From Ilumatobacter coccineus YM16-304 (lineage in GTDB: Bacteria; Actinomycetota; Acidimicrobiia; Acidimicrobiales; Ilumatobacteraceae), in the NCBI RefSeq assembly GCF_000348785.1, contig NC_020520.1:2108001-2172000 (forward strand): a stretch of 64,000 nt of DNA, given 5' to 3'. Positions 5,025 through 15,487 of this stretch are shown one piece after another. The notes beneath the pieces are model-generated. The model was not told the DNA's origin and searched no databases. It worked only from the letters and a program-made list of their open reading frames with translations. The translations under genes and the position numbers were made by a program. The stretch's first letter is position 1. Each line of letters opens with the position of its first letter.

Positions 5025-5110
5025 GTTCTCAACGTACGCGATGGGTGTATCAGAGTTGAGAAACGGGCATCTACCTGCGGTGATGACGAACTCGCCGGAA
5101 GAACAGGTGA

Positions 5111-5137
5111 CCCCGGCGCTGCTACAACAGCCCGGGG
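5111..5137. terminator. Strong hairpin between the HNH gene and rnpB
   Basis: CCCCGG, one unpaired C, and GCTG pair with CAGC and CCGGGG around a six-base loop. It lies about 65 bases beyond the rnpB-proximal hairpin in the direction of rnpB transcription, and upstream of the HNH gene promoter. It could be a second stop for rnpB transcripts. There is no U-tract. Confidence 0.4.
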
Positions 5138-5201
5138 TCTGGCCGGAAGCCCGTGGAGGCCGCCGACACGCTCACCGTACCGGCTCGGCTGAGCGTTGCG
5201 A

Positions 5202-5232
5202 CCGGACGCTTTGTCAGAGACAAACCGTCCGG
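5202..5232 (-). terminator. TTTGTC-core hairpin at the 3' end of rnpB
   Basis: Outer arms CCGGACG (5202-5208) and CGTCCGG (5226-5232) and inner arms TTTGTC and GACAAA enclose an AGA loop, with one C-C mismatch between inner and outer stems. It starts five bases after the inferred 3' end of RNase P RNA, so it most likely terminates that transcript. A longer version of the same sequence occurs twice at 13753-13813. Confidence 0.6.
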
Positions 5233-5237
5233 TGAGT

Positions 5238-5617
5238 GCAATGGCGAGGTGGCCTGTAAGCGGGGTTCTGTAGGTGTCGGACCGAAGTCCGGCGCCCGGT
5301 GGCCATCCATCTGTGCGGTCTACCCGGAAGAAACGGACGGGCCGCCCATCTTCCTGCTCGACCTTGCTCCGAGTGGGGTTTACCGAGCCGACGCCGTCAC
5401 CGACGCCGCTGGTGCGCTCTTACCGCACCGTTTCAGCCTTGCCTGTGAACCGTTCACCTCGAAAGGCGAACGATTCCATCGGCGGTCTCTCTCTGTTGCA
5501 CGTCCGTCAGGTCGCCCCGACCTGGCTCGCGCCAGCACTCTGCCCGGTGGAGCCCCGACTTTCCTCGACACGTCGACGAACCGTCGTGCCGCGACCACCC
5601 GGTCACCTCACCATTGC
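5238..5617 (-). ncRNA. rnpB: RNase P RNA (type A), catalytic RNA for tRNA 5' maturation
   Basis: Read on the minus strand, the region contains the bacterial RNase P RNA landmarks in order: GAGGAAAGTC near the 5' end, then the block GTGCAACAGAGAGAGACCGC, then GGTGCGGTAAGAGCGCACC, then CGGTAAACCCCACTCGGAGC, and AGAACCCCGCTTACA near the 3' end. The ends were set by helix P1: GCAATGGTGAGGTGACC at the 5' end pairs with GGCCACCTCGCCATTGC at the 3' end. This gives about 380 nt, normal for an actinobacterial type A RNA. It processes tRNA precursors together with the RnpA protein, which is not in this window. Confidence 0.95.
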
Positions 5618-7230: not shown

Positions 7231-8715
7231 TCAGAACTCCAACGCCGAGAGTTCCGGATGCCACTCGCCGGCCCGTTCGAGGGCATCGCCCCAGCGTGAG
7301 CGCAGTGCCGCGCGGTCGACGGTGGGGGCGGGAGCGACGGTGTGTGCCGGGTTCCACAGTGATTCGATGTCGGAGACGTCGGTCCAGGTGCCGATGGCGA
7401 GCCCGGCGAGGAATGCCGCTCCGACGGTCGTGGCGTCGGACACTGGCGACACTTCGACCTGCCTGCCGGTCACGTCGGCGAGGGTCTGGACGAGGGTCGG
7501 ATTGGCCGACATGCCGCCGTCGATCCGCAGTGTGTCGACCTCGACGCCGGTGTCGGAGGTGGCGGCGTCGAGCAGGTCGGCGCTGCGCTGAGCGATGCCG
7601 TCGAGCACGGCCCGCACGATGTGCGACCGCTCGGTCCCTCGCGTGAGGCCGAGCAGTGTTCCGCGTGCGCCGTAGTCCCACCGGGGCGTGCCCAGCCCGA
7701 GCAGCGCCGGGACGTAGACGACGCCGCCGGCATCGGCGCAACCCGATGCCACGTCGTGACTCTCGGCGGGAGTGTCGATGAGCCGGAGGTCGTCGCGGAG
7801 CCACTCGATGTTGGTGCCCGCCGACAGCATGATCCCCTCGGCGCCCCACGAGAGCGCGCCGTCGAGTTGCCACGTGGGCAGGGCGTAGGTTCCGGCGTCG
7901 TTGCGGGCGATCTCGGTGGGAGCTGGGGCGCCGGTGAACATGTCGAGCATGCCGCCGGTGCCGAGCGTCAACTTGGCCAGCCCGGCACGAGTGCACGCCT
8001 GCCCGATCAACGAACCCTGCTGGTCGCCGACGAGCGCCGCGATCGGCGGTGAACCGGGAAGCGCGGCCGCCGCGGCGATCACACCGGAGGAGTCGACCAC
8101 CTGAGGGAGCACGCTGTGCGGGATGCCGAACGCGTCGAGGCGATCATCGGCCCACGACGACCCGTCGGCCGTGCGCATGCCGGTGGTGGTGGTCGACATG
8201 TTGGTCCCGTCCGACACGTGCACGGCACCGTCGGTCAGGACCCACGCGATCCAACTGTCGACCGTGCCGAATGCGAGATCGGTCGGGGCGGAGTCGCCGA
8301 GCCCGCCGAGAATCGACGCCAGTTTGGTGATCGACTGGTTCGGAGCGATGTTCCAGCCGCGTTCGGCCTTGGCCGTGATGCACTCGGTGATCGTGCGCAG
8401 ATCCTGCCACCCCAACCCCATCGCGACGGGCTCGCCGCTCGCTCGGTCCCACACCACGGTCGACGCGCGCTGACACGTGATGCCCACGGCGTCGACGGGT
8501 CGGTCGAGACGTCCCAGCACGCTGTGCGCCGCTTCGAGCACCTTGTCGGCCATCAGCCGAGCGTCGAACTCGACGAGGCCGTCGAACGGAACCGACGGCG
8601 GATTGGGCCGGTACTCGATGTCGACGATGCGCAGTTGCTCGTCGACCACCGCGGCGCGCAGCCCCGTGGTGCCGACGTCGATCACGAGGATCCGGGCGGC
8701 CGATGGCGTCGTCAT
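7231..8715 (-). CDS. FGGY-family carbohydrate kinase, substrate unknown
   Basis: A 494-residue, two-domain kinase. The N-terminal ATPase loop VIDVGTTGLRAAVVD begins near residue 11. The catalytic Asp is in GDQQGSLIGQ, and the C-terminal GG-rich phosphate site is present (DGGMSANPTLVQ). Overall it resembles glycerol kinase, but the glycerol-binding NQRET motif reads CQRAS, so the glutamate that contacts glycerol is replaced by alanine. The Trp of GWQDLRT is kept. A different polyol or sugar substrate is likely. The ATG overlaps the stop of the upstream membrane-protein gene (ATGA). A canonical glycerol kinase is encoded separately at 25144-26649. Confidence 0.85.
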   Translation of the reverse strand: MTTPSAARILVIDVGTTGLRAAVVDEQLRIVDIEYRPNPPSVPFDGLVEFDARLMADKVLEAAHSVLGRLDRPVDAVGITCQRASTVVWDRASGEPVAMGLGWQDLRTITECITAKAERGWNIAPNQSITKLASILGGLGDSAPTDLAFGTVDSWIAWVLTDGAVHVSDGTNMSTTTTGMRTADGSSWADDRLDAFGIPHSVLPQVVDSSGVIAAAAALPGSPPIAALVGDQQGSLIGQACTRAGLAKLTLGTGGMLDMFTGAPAPTEIARNDAGTYALPTWQLDGALSWGAEGIMLSAGTNIEWLRDDLRLIDTPAESHDVASGCADAGGVVYVPALLGLGTPRWDYGARGTLLGLTRGTERSHIVRAVLDGIAQRSADLLDAATSDTGVEVDTLRIDGGMSANPTLVQTLADVTGRQVEVSPVSDATTVGAAFLAGLAIGTWTDVSDIESLWNPAHTVAPAPTVDRAALRSRWGDALERAGEWHPELSALEF

Positions 8716-11845: not shown

Positions 11846-12904
11846 ATGTCTGCACTCGAGAAACATGGTGGCTGGCCGCGGTTGATCGGTGACCTGCTCG
11901 CCGGAAACGACCTGAGTGCCGATGCTGCGGGTGCGGCGATGACCGAGATCCTGTCGGGATCGGCGACCCCGGCACAGATCGCCGGATTCGTGGTCGCGCT
12001 GCGCGCGAAGGGCGAGTCGAGTGACGAACTGGCAGCGATGCTGCGCGTCGCACTCGTCGCCGGTGCGGCCGTGCCGCTCACCGAAGCCGAACGCGCCGAC
12101 GCCATCGACGTGGTCGGCACTGGTGGCGACGGATCGCATTCGATCAACGTGTCGACCATGGCGGCCATCGTCGCCGCCGGCGCCGGCGTGCCGGTGTGCA
12201 AACACGGCAATCGTTCGGCGTCGTCGAAGTGCGGCACGGCCGACGTGCTCGAGTTGCTCGGCGTCGCCATCGAGCAGACCCCCGACGGCGTGGCCGCGTG
12301 CCTGCGCGAAGCCGGCATCGCGTTCTGCATGGCGCCGATGTTCCATCCGGCATTCCGTTTCGCCGGCCCACCGCGCCGTGAGATGGGCGTGCCGACCGTC
12401 TTCAACCTGCTCGGCCCGATGGCCAACCCGGGCCGCGTCAAGCGGCAGTTGATCGGCGTCGCCGACCCGGCGTTCGCCCGACCGATGATCGAAGCGCTGC
12501 GCACACAGGGCCTCACCTCGGCCTGGGTCGTGCACGGCGACGGACTCGACGAACTCACGACCGCCGGCACCTCCGACGTACTCGAACTGAGCGGCGGCGA
12601 GATCTCGTCGTTCACCGTCGACCCGTCGGCGCTCGGCCTGGCCCCGGCCACCGCTCGTGATCTGCGTGGCGGCGAACCCGAGGAGAACGCCGAGGCGGTG
12701 CGCCGCGTGCTCGCCGGTGACGCCGGTCCGCACCGCGACGTCGTCCTCCTCAACGCAGCGGCAGCGCTCGTCGTGGCGGGCCGCGCCGACGATCTCGTCG
12801 CCGGACTCGACCAAGCTGCAGCAGCGATCGACAGCGGAGCGGCGCAGCGGTCGCTCGACGCATTCGTCACCGTGTCGCAGGCACAACCGCAGGCGGCGAG
12901 TTGA
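11846..12904 (+). CDS. trpD: Anthranilate phosphoribosyltransferase
   Basis: A 352-residue enzyme that transfers the phosphoribosyl group from PRPP to anthranilate in tryptophan synthesis. The PRPP/Mg motif is present (DVVGTGGDG, about residues 92-100), followed by NVSTMAAIVAAGAGVPVCKH and GNRSASSKCGTADVLELLG, all diagnostic for TrpD. Length is normal. No other trp gene is adjacent. The ATG has TACCAT (11832-11837) eight bases upstream and no Shine-Dalgarno, so it is probably leaderless. Its stop overlaps the TTG start of the homoserine kinase gene, giving a two-gene amino-acid operon. Confidence 0.95.
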   Translation: MSALEKHGGWPRLIGDLLAGNDLSADAAGAAMTEILSGSATPAQIAGFVVALRAKGESSDELAAMLRVALVAGAAVPLTEAERADAIDVVGTGGDGSHSINVSTMAAIVAAGAGVPVCKHGNRSASSKCGTADVLELLGVAIEQTPDGVAACLREAGIAFCMAPMFHPAFRFAGPPRREMGVPTVFNLLGPMANPGRVKRQLIGVADPAFARPMIEALRTQGLTSAWVVHGDGLDELTTAGTSDVLELSGGEISSFTVDPSALGLAPATARDLRGGEPEENAEAVRRVLAGDAGPHRDVVLLNAAAALVVAGRADDLVAGLDQAAAAIDSGAAQRSLDAFVTVSQAQPQAAS

Positions 12905-13752
12905 CCACCTCCGGTCTCACGGTCAGGGCCCCGGCGTCGTCGGCCAACCTCGGCGCCGGGTTCGACATCTTCGGCATGGCCGTCGGTCTCCATGCCGACA
13001 TCGGCACGGGGGACGCTCCCGACGGAGCGCAGCAGATCGACGAGCACCATCCCGCCCGTGAGGCCTTCGCGCTGCTCGGCGGCACCGGGCCGATCTGGCT
13101 GCGTTGCAACATTCCGATGGCACGCGGTCTCGGGTTCAGTGGTGCGGTCCGTGTGGCGGGTGCCGCGCTCGCGGTGTGCCAACTCGCAGCCGACCCGACC
13201 CAGGCCGTCGCCGAACGCTCGAACGACATCCTCGACGTCACGACCCGACTCGAAGGCCACGGTGACAACGTCGCCGCCTCGCTGTTCGGTGGCGTCACCG
13301 CCTACGTCGACCCCGAAGCACGGCCGTTCGCCGTCGGGCCGGTCCTCGGGTCCGCCCGGTTCGTGGCCTGGATCCCCGACGTGACGACCTCGACCGACAA
13401 GTCACGCAAGACGCTCGCGCCGATGGTCGATCGGGCCTCGGCGGTGTTCAACATCGGACGGGCCGTCCAGTTCGCGCTCGCCTTCGCGCACGACGACCCG
13501 GCGATGCTCGTCGACGCCACCGCTGATCGCCTGCACCAATCGGCGCGACTCCCGCTCGTCCCCGGCGCCGCCGAGGCCATCGCAACCGGTGTCGCAGCGG
13601 GAGCCTGGTGTGCGTGGCTCTCCGGAAGCGGGCCGACGGTCGGGATGCTGGCCGGCCCCGAGGTCGCCGACGAGGTGGCTGCCAGCCTTCCCGACGGCGG
13701 CCACACCAAGGTGCTCCCCATCGACCCGAACGGCGCCCACCTCCTCACCTGA
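12901..13752 (+). CDS. thrB: Homoserine kinase (GHMP family)
   Basis: A 283-residue GHMP kinase that phosphorylates homoserine in threonine synthesis. The N-terminus TVRAPASSANLGAGFDIFG is typical of ThrB. The GHMP phosphate loop PMARGLGFSGAVR lies near residues 75-87, and the C-terminal LSGSGPT motif near residue 240. The start is TTG, overlapping the trpD stop (TTGA), which indicates coupled translation. It is slightly shorter than many homologues but all motifs are present. It ends just before a tandem hairpin that separates it from a convergent gene. Confidence 0.88.
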   Translation: MTTSGLTVRAPASSANLGAGFDIFGMAVGLHADIGTGDAPDGAQQIDEHHPAREAFALLGGTGPIWLRCNIPMARGLGFSGAVRVAGAALAVCQLAADPTQAVAERSNDILDVTTRLEGHGDNVAASLFGGVTAYVDPEARPFAVGPVLGSARFVAWIPDVTTSTDKSRKTLAPMVDRASAVFNIGRAVQFALAFAHDDPAMLVDATADRLHQSARLPLVPGAAEAIATGVAAGAWCAWLSGSGPTVGMLAGPEVADEVAASLPDGGHTKVLPIDPNGAHLLT

Positions 13753-13783
13753 CGGACGCTTTGTCTCAGAGACAAACCGTCCG
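13753..13783. terminator. TTTGTCTC-core hairpin, copy A of a tandem pair
   Basis: CGGACG and CGTCCG form the outer stem; TTTGTCTC and GAGACAAA form the inner stem around a single A. It starts on the base after the thrB stop codon. With its neighbour it probably acts as a bidirectional terminator between convergent genes. Confidence 0.6.
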
Positions 13784-13813
13784 CCCGGTTTGTCTCTGAG
13801 ACAAAGCGGGCGG
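13781..13813. terminator. TTTGTCTC-core hairpin, copy B of a tandem pair
   Basis: CCGCCCG and CGGGCGG form the outer stem; TTTGTCTC and GAGACAAA form the inner stem around a single T. It shares CCG (13781-13783) with copy A and ends on the base before the stop codon of the minus-strand exonuclease gene. The outer arms differ in sequence from copy A but keep their pairing, so the hairpin itself appears to be maintained. Confidence 0.6.
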
Positions 13814-15487
13814 TCAGGCGGCGCGGGGGATGGGCGGGATCTCGGTGGTGGCGTGGACGGGGAACGACCAGGCGCCGCTGCACGAGACGTGCAACTGCTC
13901 GGCCCGCTTGTCGAAGAACTTGGCCAAGCACAGCGCCTCGTCGGCGTGCACGCGGGGCGTGGGGCGGCCCGACTCGATCACGTCGAGCGCTTCGATCGGG
14001 AGCGCAGCCGTGAGGCGCCCGGCCGCACGGACGTCGACCAACCGGCCGGCCGACACGACCCACGTCGTGTCGCCGAGCGTGACCTCGGCATCACCGATCT
14101 CGCCGAGCGCCCGGAGCAGTGAGGTTCGTCGAATGGCTCCCAACACGGCCGACAAGCGGTCACGTGTCATCGCCGCTTCTTCGAATCGCTGCTGGCCCGC
14201 CAGGTCGGTCATCCGGCTCCGGAGCGCGTCGACGACGTACGCCGGATCACCGAACATCGCTCGCTTCGCCTGCTCGACGCACGCTGCGTACTCGCGGGCG
14301 TCGGCCGTGCCCGAACACGGGCAGTGCGCCACACCCAACTGAGCGGCGCTGCACACCGGGGCACTCGGATCGGGCCGGTGATCGCGCGCCAACCGTTGCG
14401 TACACCGGCGTAGCGGCAGTGCCGTGTGCAGCCCGTCGACCACCAGGGCGGCCATCTTGCGTGACGGGAGCGGGCCGAGGTGGACGCCGGTCTTCGCCGG
14501 GTTCTTCACGACCGACAGCCGTGGCCAGGGCGATTCGGTGTCGAGTTTGACGTAGCAGTACTTCGCCGCCGTGGTGCCGCGCCGGTTGTAGCGCGGCATC
14601 GACGTGCCGATGATGCGTGTCTCGACGATCTCGGCGGTCAGCGGATCGGGGAGTTCGATGTGCGTCACCGTCTTCATCTCGCGCAGCATCGGGCCGATCT
14701 TGCGCCGGTCGTCGCTTCCGAAATAGCTCCGCACCCGCTGGCGCAGGTTGGTCGCCTTGCCGACGTAGAGCACACGGTCGGCCGGATCGCGGAACATGTA
14801 GACACCCGGGGTGCGGGGGAGTGCCGCCGTCTGCTTCAGCTTGGCCGCGTTGGGATGCCCGCCGATCTTGCCCAGCGCGACCAGATCGTCGAGACCGAGC
14901 ACGCCCAGACCCGCGGCTCGCTCGATGAGCAGATGCAGTAGGTCGACGGTGGCGAGCGCGTCGTCGAGCGCTCGGTGGCTGGGCTGGTGCTCGAATCGGT
15001 AGCGCGAGGCGAGCGTGCCGAGTTTGCAGTTGGGCACCTCGTCACGCACGAGGCGACGAGCGAGGGGCACGGTGTCGATGACCGTGCCCGACCACGCCGG
15101 TCGATCGGCCCGGCGGAGCGCGGCGCGGATGAACCCCATGTCGAACGCCGAGTTGTGGGCGACGATCACCGAATCACCGATGAAGCTCAGCAGCGACGGC
15201 AACACGCTCTCGATCCGAGGTGCCGGTGCGACGAGCGAGTTCGTGAGCCCGGTGAGCACCGTGATCTGCGGCGGGATCGCCTTGCCCGGATTGACGAGCG
15301 TCTGAAACGTGCCGAGACGTTCGCCACCGCGTACCTTGACGGCACCGATCTCGGTGATCATGTCGTCGTTGCGGTTGCCGCCGGTGGTCTCGAGGTCGAG
15401 CACGCAGAACGTGACCTCGCAGAGAGGTACGCCCAGTTCATCGAACGAACGTTGCAGATTTTGGTGAGAACCGGCCCCAACTGGCAT
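13814..15487 (-). CDS. DEDDh exonuclease fused to GIY-YIG (UvrC-like) nuclease
   Basis: A 557-residue fusion. Residues about 25-190 form a DnaQ-type 3'-5' exonuclease with all acidic sites (VLDLETTG, HNSAFDMGF, HRALDDA). From about residue 215 a GIY-YIG domain begins (PGVYMFRDPADRVLYVGKATNLRQR), then a UvrC-like region and a UVR-like segment (RFEEAAMTRDRLSAV). Such fusions are known in actinobacteria and are thought to work in DNA repair, with the GIY-YIG part resembling Cho/UvrC. No UvrA/B-dependent neighbours are present. The ATG at 15487 is the only plausible start before motif I. It ends against the tandem hairpin it shares with thrB. Confidence 0.88.
   Translation of the reverse strand: MPVGAGSHQNLQRSFDELGVPLCEVTFCVLDLETTGGNRNDDMITEIGAVKVRGGERLGTFQTLVNPGKAIPPQITVLTGLTNSLVAPAPRIESVLPSLLSFIGDSVIVAHNSAFDMGFIRAALRRADRPAWSGTVIDTVPLARRLVRDEVPNCKLGTLASRYRFEHQPSHRALDDALATVDLLHLLIERAAGLGVLGLDDLVALGKIGGHPNAAKLKQTAALPRTPGVYMFRDPADRVLYVGKATNLRQRVRSYFGSDDRRKIGPMLREMKTVTHIELPDPLTAEIVETRIIGTSMPRYNRRGTTAAKYCYVKLDTESPWPRLSVVKNPAKTGVHLGPLPSRKMAALVVDGLHTALPLRRCTQRLARDHRPDPSAPVCSAAQLGVAHCPCSGTADAREYAACVEQAKRAMFGDPAYVVDALRSRMTDLAGQQRFEEAAMTRDRLSAVLGAIRRTSLLRALGEIGDAEVTLGDTTWVVSAGRLVDVRAAGRLTAALPIEALDVIESGRPTPRVHADEALCLAKFFDKRAEQLHVSCSGAWSFPVHATTEIPPIPRAA

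Follow-up and report, generated by a model that had tools for sequence, protein, structure and literature searches.

The tandem hairpins between the thrB-like gene and the facing exonuclease gene of Ilumatobacter coccineus YM16-304 are very probably copies of a dispersed palindrome, here called family A, that goes with an HUH tyrosine transposase of the RAYT type (REP/TIR-associated) whose gene is on the same chromosome. The gene for this transposase lies between two copies of the palindrome, 1.6 Mb from the window, by which we mean the whole stretch of 64,000 nucleotides that was analysed (bases 2108001–2172000 of the genome, which is one contig of 4,830,181 bp). This location changed the explanation relative to the original prediction, which had proposed a lineage-specific terminator or repeat family between two convergent genes.

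At the window site (Table 1), two copies of the palindrome have the trinucleotide CCG (13781–13783) in common and together make up the entire 61-bp gap, just as the original prediction had described it. Searching the window for the core of the palindrome with up to three mismatches gave 2 matches, compared to 0.07 per shuffled sequence. The site near the RNase P RNA gene (rnpB) carries an imperfect copy; a further GC-rich hairpin was seen by eye close to it, at about 5110–5140.

Table 1. Positions of the genes and repeats discussed in the text. Plain numbers refer to the window; G000:C1 denotes the complete I. coccineus chromosome.
Feature	Position	Strand	Description
thrB-like homoserine kinase, left host gene	12901..13752	+	stop codon TGA at 13750-13752; TIGR00191 132 bits, under cut-off of 168
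Palindromic repeat, copy 1	13753..13783	A-centred on +	CGGACGC-TTTGTCTCAGAGACAAA-CCGTCCG; abuts thrB stop codon
Palindromic repeat, copy 2	13781..13813	A-centred on -	CCGCCCGG-TTTGTCTCTGAGACAAA-GCGGGCGG; rare CCGCCCG arm variant; abuts exonuclease stop codon
DEDD exonuclease / UvrC-like GIY-YIG protein, right host gene	13814..15487	-	NF005907 above cut-off; ORF end at 13814
Imperfect third copy	5202..5232		2-bp deletion in core; 8 bp past 3' end of RNase P RNA gene (rnpB; 5241-5610, - strand)
Family A Y1_Tnp (HUH, single tyrosine) transposase gene	G000:C1:3756449-3757294	-	281 aa; PF01797
Family B (CATCSGGTGTC; CGTCATCCGGTGTCWGACACCGGATGACG) at its Y1_Tnp locus (L112)	G000:C1:2039123-2040070		independent of family A

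The two hairpins had been drawn with one-base loops, which cannot form in RNA. Instead, the 69-nt RNA of 13750–13818 is predicted to fold into a single long hairpin, in which copy 1 pairs with copy 2 (-48.9 kcal/mol; z -9), and the other strand of the same segment, taken as RNA, has a predicted fold of -47 kcal/mol. No Rfam model reached its gathering score in 13400–14200; the sole matches, to microRNA models below gathering, were regarded as chance similarities to a perfect hairpin.

Hairpins of such predicted strength, and an imperfect copy directly downstream of rnpB, are in line with a different explanation, namely that selection maintains the palindromes as terminators of transcription, factor-independent and possibly bidirectional, with a hairpin core that is conserved. 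We consider this unlikely as the main explanation. The scan of 13400–14200 found no U-tract after the hairpin, which agrees with what had been noted before and counts against a terminator of this kind, and a terminator alone leaves the bracketed transposase unexplained.

The core, TTTGTCTCWGAGACAAA, occurs in 53 exact copies in the 4.83-Mb genome, always with A or T as its middle base, so that the hairpins of the window are indeed members of a repeat family. Allowing one mismatch raised the number to 55, while a reversed-pattern control gave 0. As one mismatch added only two copies, the 17-bp core is very uniform. Alignment of the 53 copies, which had been chosen as exact core matches, gave CCGGACGS-core-SCGTCCGG (where S stands for G or C) as the consensus, 33 bp in length; the elements themselves are 31–33 bp long.

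The outer stem had been thought to change in both arms in a compensatory manner. Neither part of this proposal held genome-wide. The outer arms are nearly constant across the 53 copies; the CCGCCCG 5' arm (read on the A-centred strand) is a rare variant present in three of them, and only one of the three, copy 2 of the window, has the matching 3' arm. The bases 5' and 3' of the core were G/C in 30 copies, C/C in 17, C/G in 3 and G/G in 3, which leaves these positions unpaired in 20 of 53 copies, where 21.5 would be expected if the two sides were independent. Pairing beside the core is thus not kept, which argues against terminators maintained by selection. In the flank counts of the 53 copies there was neither a GTAG or GTGG foot nor a clear tetranucleotide as a target-site motif, and the enrichment that these flanks do show is explained by abutting stop codons. 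At one place, G000:C1:4392813 and 4392850, a family B and a family A copy adjoin each other in the same gap.

The protein encoded between the two inverted family A copies (one copy 1 bp after the stop codon, the other 30 bp before the start codon) matches the Y1_Tnp model PF01797 above cut-off (E 4e-10). It also matches the NCBIfam model for REP-associated tyrosine transposases (E 4e-15), with 55.8 bits, below the 80-bit cut-off. Its motifs are GNHYH and YVHRNA, the latter in place of the class-2 motif Y---NP, and the same exchange of NP for NA was found in its congener relatives (YVHRNA in G002b and G003, YIHLNA in G004b). No HTH model was listed at E ≤10 for the protein, which carries a C-terminal extension. 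A comparison with solved structures gave no convincing sequence match, the two transposase entries having E values of 0.09 and 0.18.

The nearest relatives of the family A transposase, one in G004, two in G002 and one in G003, are 55–59% identical to it. The genes of the relatives at L124 (G002) and L125 (G003) lie between palindromes of 25–35 bp that are W-centred but have a different sequence. Over their aligned parts, the family A, G002b and G003 transposases are 58–68% identical. In a protein search of 395 genomes of the class, matches outside the own genome were found in 8 genomes (33–50% identical), and a palindrome scan of the transposase loci in these 8 genomes found no family A flanks.

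A search for Y1_Tnp genes in the ten genomes of the genus found five in I. coccineus, four of them over cut-off, and matches in 8 of the 10 genomes. The genus has 16 Y1_Tnp matches, whose loci were all fetched; 14 of them had repeats on both sides, in 13 cases inverted and in one case as direct 36-bp arrays. The two others are L120, which is cut by the contig end, and L123. The 14 include all four remaining Y1_Tnp genes of I. coccineus, each flanked by a repeat other than family A. The gene at L111 1811–3104 (G000:C1:3741884-3743177) has 36-bp direct repeats on both sides rather than single palindromes, and further repeat types flank the genes at L113 (1350–1432 and 2347–2429) and L114 (1876–1919 and 2816–2950). 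The core motifs of the L113 and L114 repeats gave 6–7 and 16 matches, respectively, in the fetched I. coccineus DNA.

Counts of the palindromes across the ten genomes show that, for three families, repeat abundance tracks the presence of the transposase that the repeats bracket, with few stray copies. The 53 copies of family A are confined to I. coccineus. Family B (forward/reverse counts) was found 57/51 times in I. coccineus and 95/101 times in G001, in both of which it brackets a Y1_Tnp gene, 4/3 times in G006, 1/0 times in G002 and in none of the six other genomes; the stray copies are thus the 4 of G006, a genome lacking any Y1_Tnp match, and the single one of G002, where no cognate was seen. 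Many of the family B copies listed for G001 lie at contig ends. The CAAAGTTGTG family occurs 71/69 times in G002 and 79/79 times in G003, brackets a Y1_Tnp gene in both and is absent from the eight others. A fourth family, ACACTTGGGGTC, with the perfect palindrome ACACTTGGGGTCWGACCCCAAGTGT, has 30 copies in the fragmented assembly of G004 and none in the other nine genomes. No tie to a transposase was seen for this family, the sole copy on a Y1_Tnp contig being about 1.6 kb from the gene (L120). In a tree of the transposases (26 rows of 28 loci, L113 and L137 being left out), enzymes with similar palindromes are sisters: that of family B pairs with that of G001 (100/99) and G002b pairs with G003 (100/99).

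The presence of the core was then compared more widely. The original prediction of a lineage-specific family was borne out: there are 0 exact copies in the nine congeners, and 220 other genomes of the same taxonomic family contain one match, with one mismatch, in a single genome. The thrB/exonuclease pair has orthologues in 8 of the 9 congeners, with the core in none. Their gaps measure 3, 8, 22, 34 and 86 bp, two are about 550 bp long and one pair was called as overlapping. The simplest reading of these sequences is that family A would have been gained in the I. coccineus lineage. Terminators kept by selection fit less well with congeners that lack the core at the same place.

At two other sites the orthologous gaps were inspected. 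At site 127210, congener G008 lacks the core, but its orthologous gap contains inverted repeats of other kinds (by eye). At site 131036, the matched flanks are separated by about 690 bp in congener G006, which thus offers no clean empty site. In G008, the orthologous convergent gap (L154; G008:C169:8428-8595) holds different inverted repeats, by eye of the CGGTGAGTTTGCG type, as if the niche had been reused. A low-complexity segment at L029 (about 7866–7933), apparently coding for a threonine-rich C-terminal tail, had dozens of matches spread over four congeners.

A scan of a collection with one genome per species (84,980 species, the own genome possibly absent) returned 11 stretches with the core, 8 from one uncultured Olsenella and 3 single ones elsewhere. 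In this metagenome-assembled genome, Olsenella sp. RUG161, from a distant actinobacterial lineage, the TTTGTCTCWGAGACAAA core is dispersed; its arms often resemble GGGGACGGAGCAC, and the copies often form clusters (L088–L091, L093, L094, L097, L098, L142). The genome has two Y1_Tnp genes, one of which lies between inverted repeats with a TTTGTCTC core. Over 154 aa, the transposases of Ilumatobacter and Olsenella have about 40% identity, and the tree places them far from each other. Given this distance, the core common to the two repeats may reflect convergence rather than shared descent.

The location of the copies relative to genes was analysed with gene positions from our own gene caller rather than from an annotation. 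Of the 53 family A copies, 18 lie between convergent genes, 27 between tandem and 8 between divergent ones, and the corresponding numbers in control DNA (328 junctions, including the window itself) are 51, 229 and 48. Convergent gaps are over-represented, both for family A (17 of 52 junctions, with the two window copies counted as one; p 0.006) and for family B (15 of 47 clusters; p 0.012), relative to 51 of 328 in the control. For the distance to stop codons, 51 of the 53 copies were kept, leaving out the two in the window. In tandem gaps, the upstream stop codon is no more than 5 bp away for 12 of 27 family A copies, where even placement predicts 3.1; more copies are nearer to the stop than to the next start, by 22 to 5 for family A and, in clusters, by 27 to 1 for family B. 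Overlap of more than 10 bp with a called gene was found for 8 of 55 family B copies (one by 383 bp), and one family A copy overlaps by 19 bp.

This clustering at gene 3' ends bears on several explanations. Both the convergent excess and the closeness to upstream stops in tandem gaps are what would be expected of terminators. Against terminators stand the 8 copies in divergent gaps, and the convergent gaps themselves, where 14 of 16 family A copies lie close to stops but 13.0 would do so by even placement, the high expectation being due to the shortness of those gaps. Copies would also be expected past stop codons if they were merely tolerated at such places, and Di Nocera et al. (PMC3733652) describe REPs of other bacteria in similar places.

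Of the 55 copies found at up to one mismatch, 53 have a perfect core of 17 bp, which could also suggest the operator of a DNA-binding regulator. We regard this as very improbable, as the copies are mostly at gene 3' ends and not before starts, the conserved outer arms and the bracketed transposase would remain unexplained, and the nine congeners have no exact copy.

DNA uptake sequences, such as the DUS of Neisseria and the USS of Haemophilus, often occur as paired inverted copies that serve as terminators. The constant core and the inverted pairs that follow genes recall this arrangement, but the half-site TTTGTCTC was found 126 times within full cores and only 3 times otherwise, compared to about 10 expected by composition, and all 3 of these sit in imperfect full copies. 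This census covered 1.10 Mb of fetched I. coccineus DNA (1.04 Mb distinct), chosen partly around copies. With only about 55 copies per genome in addition, it is highly improbable that the core serves as an uptake sequence.

We assigned each copy a direction by its middle base, taking base 1 as the origin and the middle of the genome as the terminus, with noisy support from GC skew. The A-centred strand coincided with the inferred lagging-strand template in 33 of 53 family A copies (p 0.098, not significant alone), in 37 of 55 family B copies among those listed (p 0.014) and in 70 of 108 for both together, again with family B represented by the copies listed (p 0.003). After thinning to one copy per 200 bp and removal of the transposase-flanking copies, which left 95 of 108, the ratio was 63 of 95 (p 0.002). 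Shifting the terminus gave Fisher p values of 0.05–0.10 for A and 0.016–0.05 for B. The data thus provide moderate evidence for a strand bias by replichore in this one genome. The direction of family A copies has no tie to the strand of the gene (14 of 27), which is a further point against terminators, and family B has a weak tie (21 of 32). Quentin et al. (PMC6006769) describe IS608 and ISDra2, two members of the IS200/IS605 family, as having the lagging-strand template for their target, so the bias fits a similar enzyme acting on single strands.

Taken as products of the transposase, the repeats could have arisen as follows. We infer that the enzyme copies them: it would recognise the palindrome as single-stranded DNA, and its catalytic tyrosine would cut and join it. 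New copies would be placed into single-stranded stretches of the lagging-strand template at replication, this being the presumed acting strand. The copies surviving today would be those where harm was small, which is mainly just past stop codons and, most of all, where two genes converge. Selection may have added a role as terminator or mRNA end.

What appeared to be a terminator oddity has become a transposase–repeat set within a finished genome that can be compared with nine congeners. The family A, G002b and G003 systems have the same palindrome build with different sequences, and so form a natural series for the choice of repeat by enzyme. Lineage-specific gains of 3'-end hairpins could be used to ask about effects on transcription ends. 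A broader scheme, which we put forward as a rather long shot, is that the non-GTAG RAYT-like transposases of Ilumatobacter and their species-private perfect palindromes would supply a ready set of 3'-end elements or terminators (barriers between convergent genes), laid on the lagging-strand template and replaced when specificity shifts.

We noticed no paper describing family A among the open-access papers searched. RAYTs have reportedly been grouped by Bertels and colleagues in 2017. In the published account of the I. coccineus YM16-304 chromosome (PMC3910706), the terms 'repeat', 'transposase' and 'palindrom' were not found. Among the known kinds of repeat-associated transposases, the REPtron (REP/RAYT), as described in parts of Nunvar et al. 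(2010; PMC2817692), shares with family A a transposase between two inverted palindromes, a genome-specific pairing and extragenic copies. Unlike the REPtron palindromes, family A is nearly perfect and lacks the GT[AG]G foot, and without a GTAG foot it is not a GTAG REP.

TnpA-Y1 subclass 2.1 resembles the family A enzyme in its NH[YF]H motif, its extra C-terminal region and the lack of GTAG, judging from sections of Quentin et al. (2018; PMC6006769), where the subclass is suggested to be the counterpart of TIRYT and no REP-like sequences are reported near 2.1 genes. The family A transposase differs in lying beside dispersed palindromes, in having YVHRNA for Y---NP and in that no HTH domain was detected in it. 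If the enzyme does belong to subclass 2.1, it would add dispersed palindromes to a type that had no REP-like neighbours in one survey.

The best fit is with TIRYT/TIRtron. In the sections of Di Nocera et al. (2013; PMC3733652) on these elements, TIRYTs are RAYT relatives with non-GTAG inverted repeats, some of them self-complementary, that form moderately abundant dispersed families; the term 'actinobacteria' is absent from the main text. What differs from that description is that several Ilumatobacter congeners have a W-centred palindrome of their own, present in about 50–100 copies, and that a strand bias is seen in one genome. What the two have in common is the basic arrangement, an HUH tyrosine transposase between inverted repeats without a GTAG foot.
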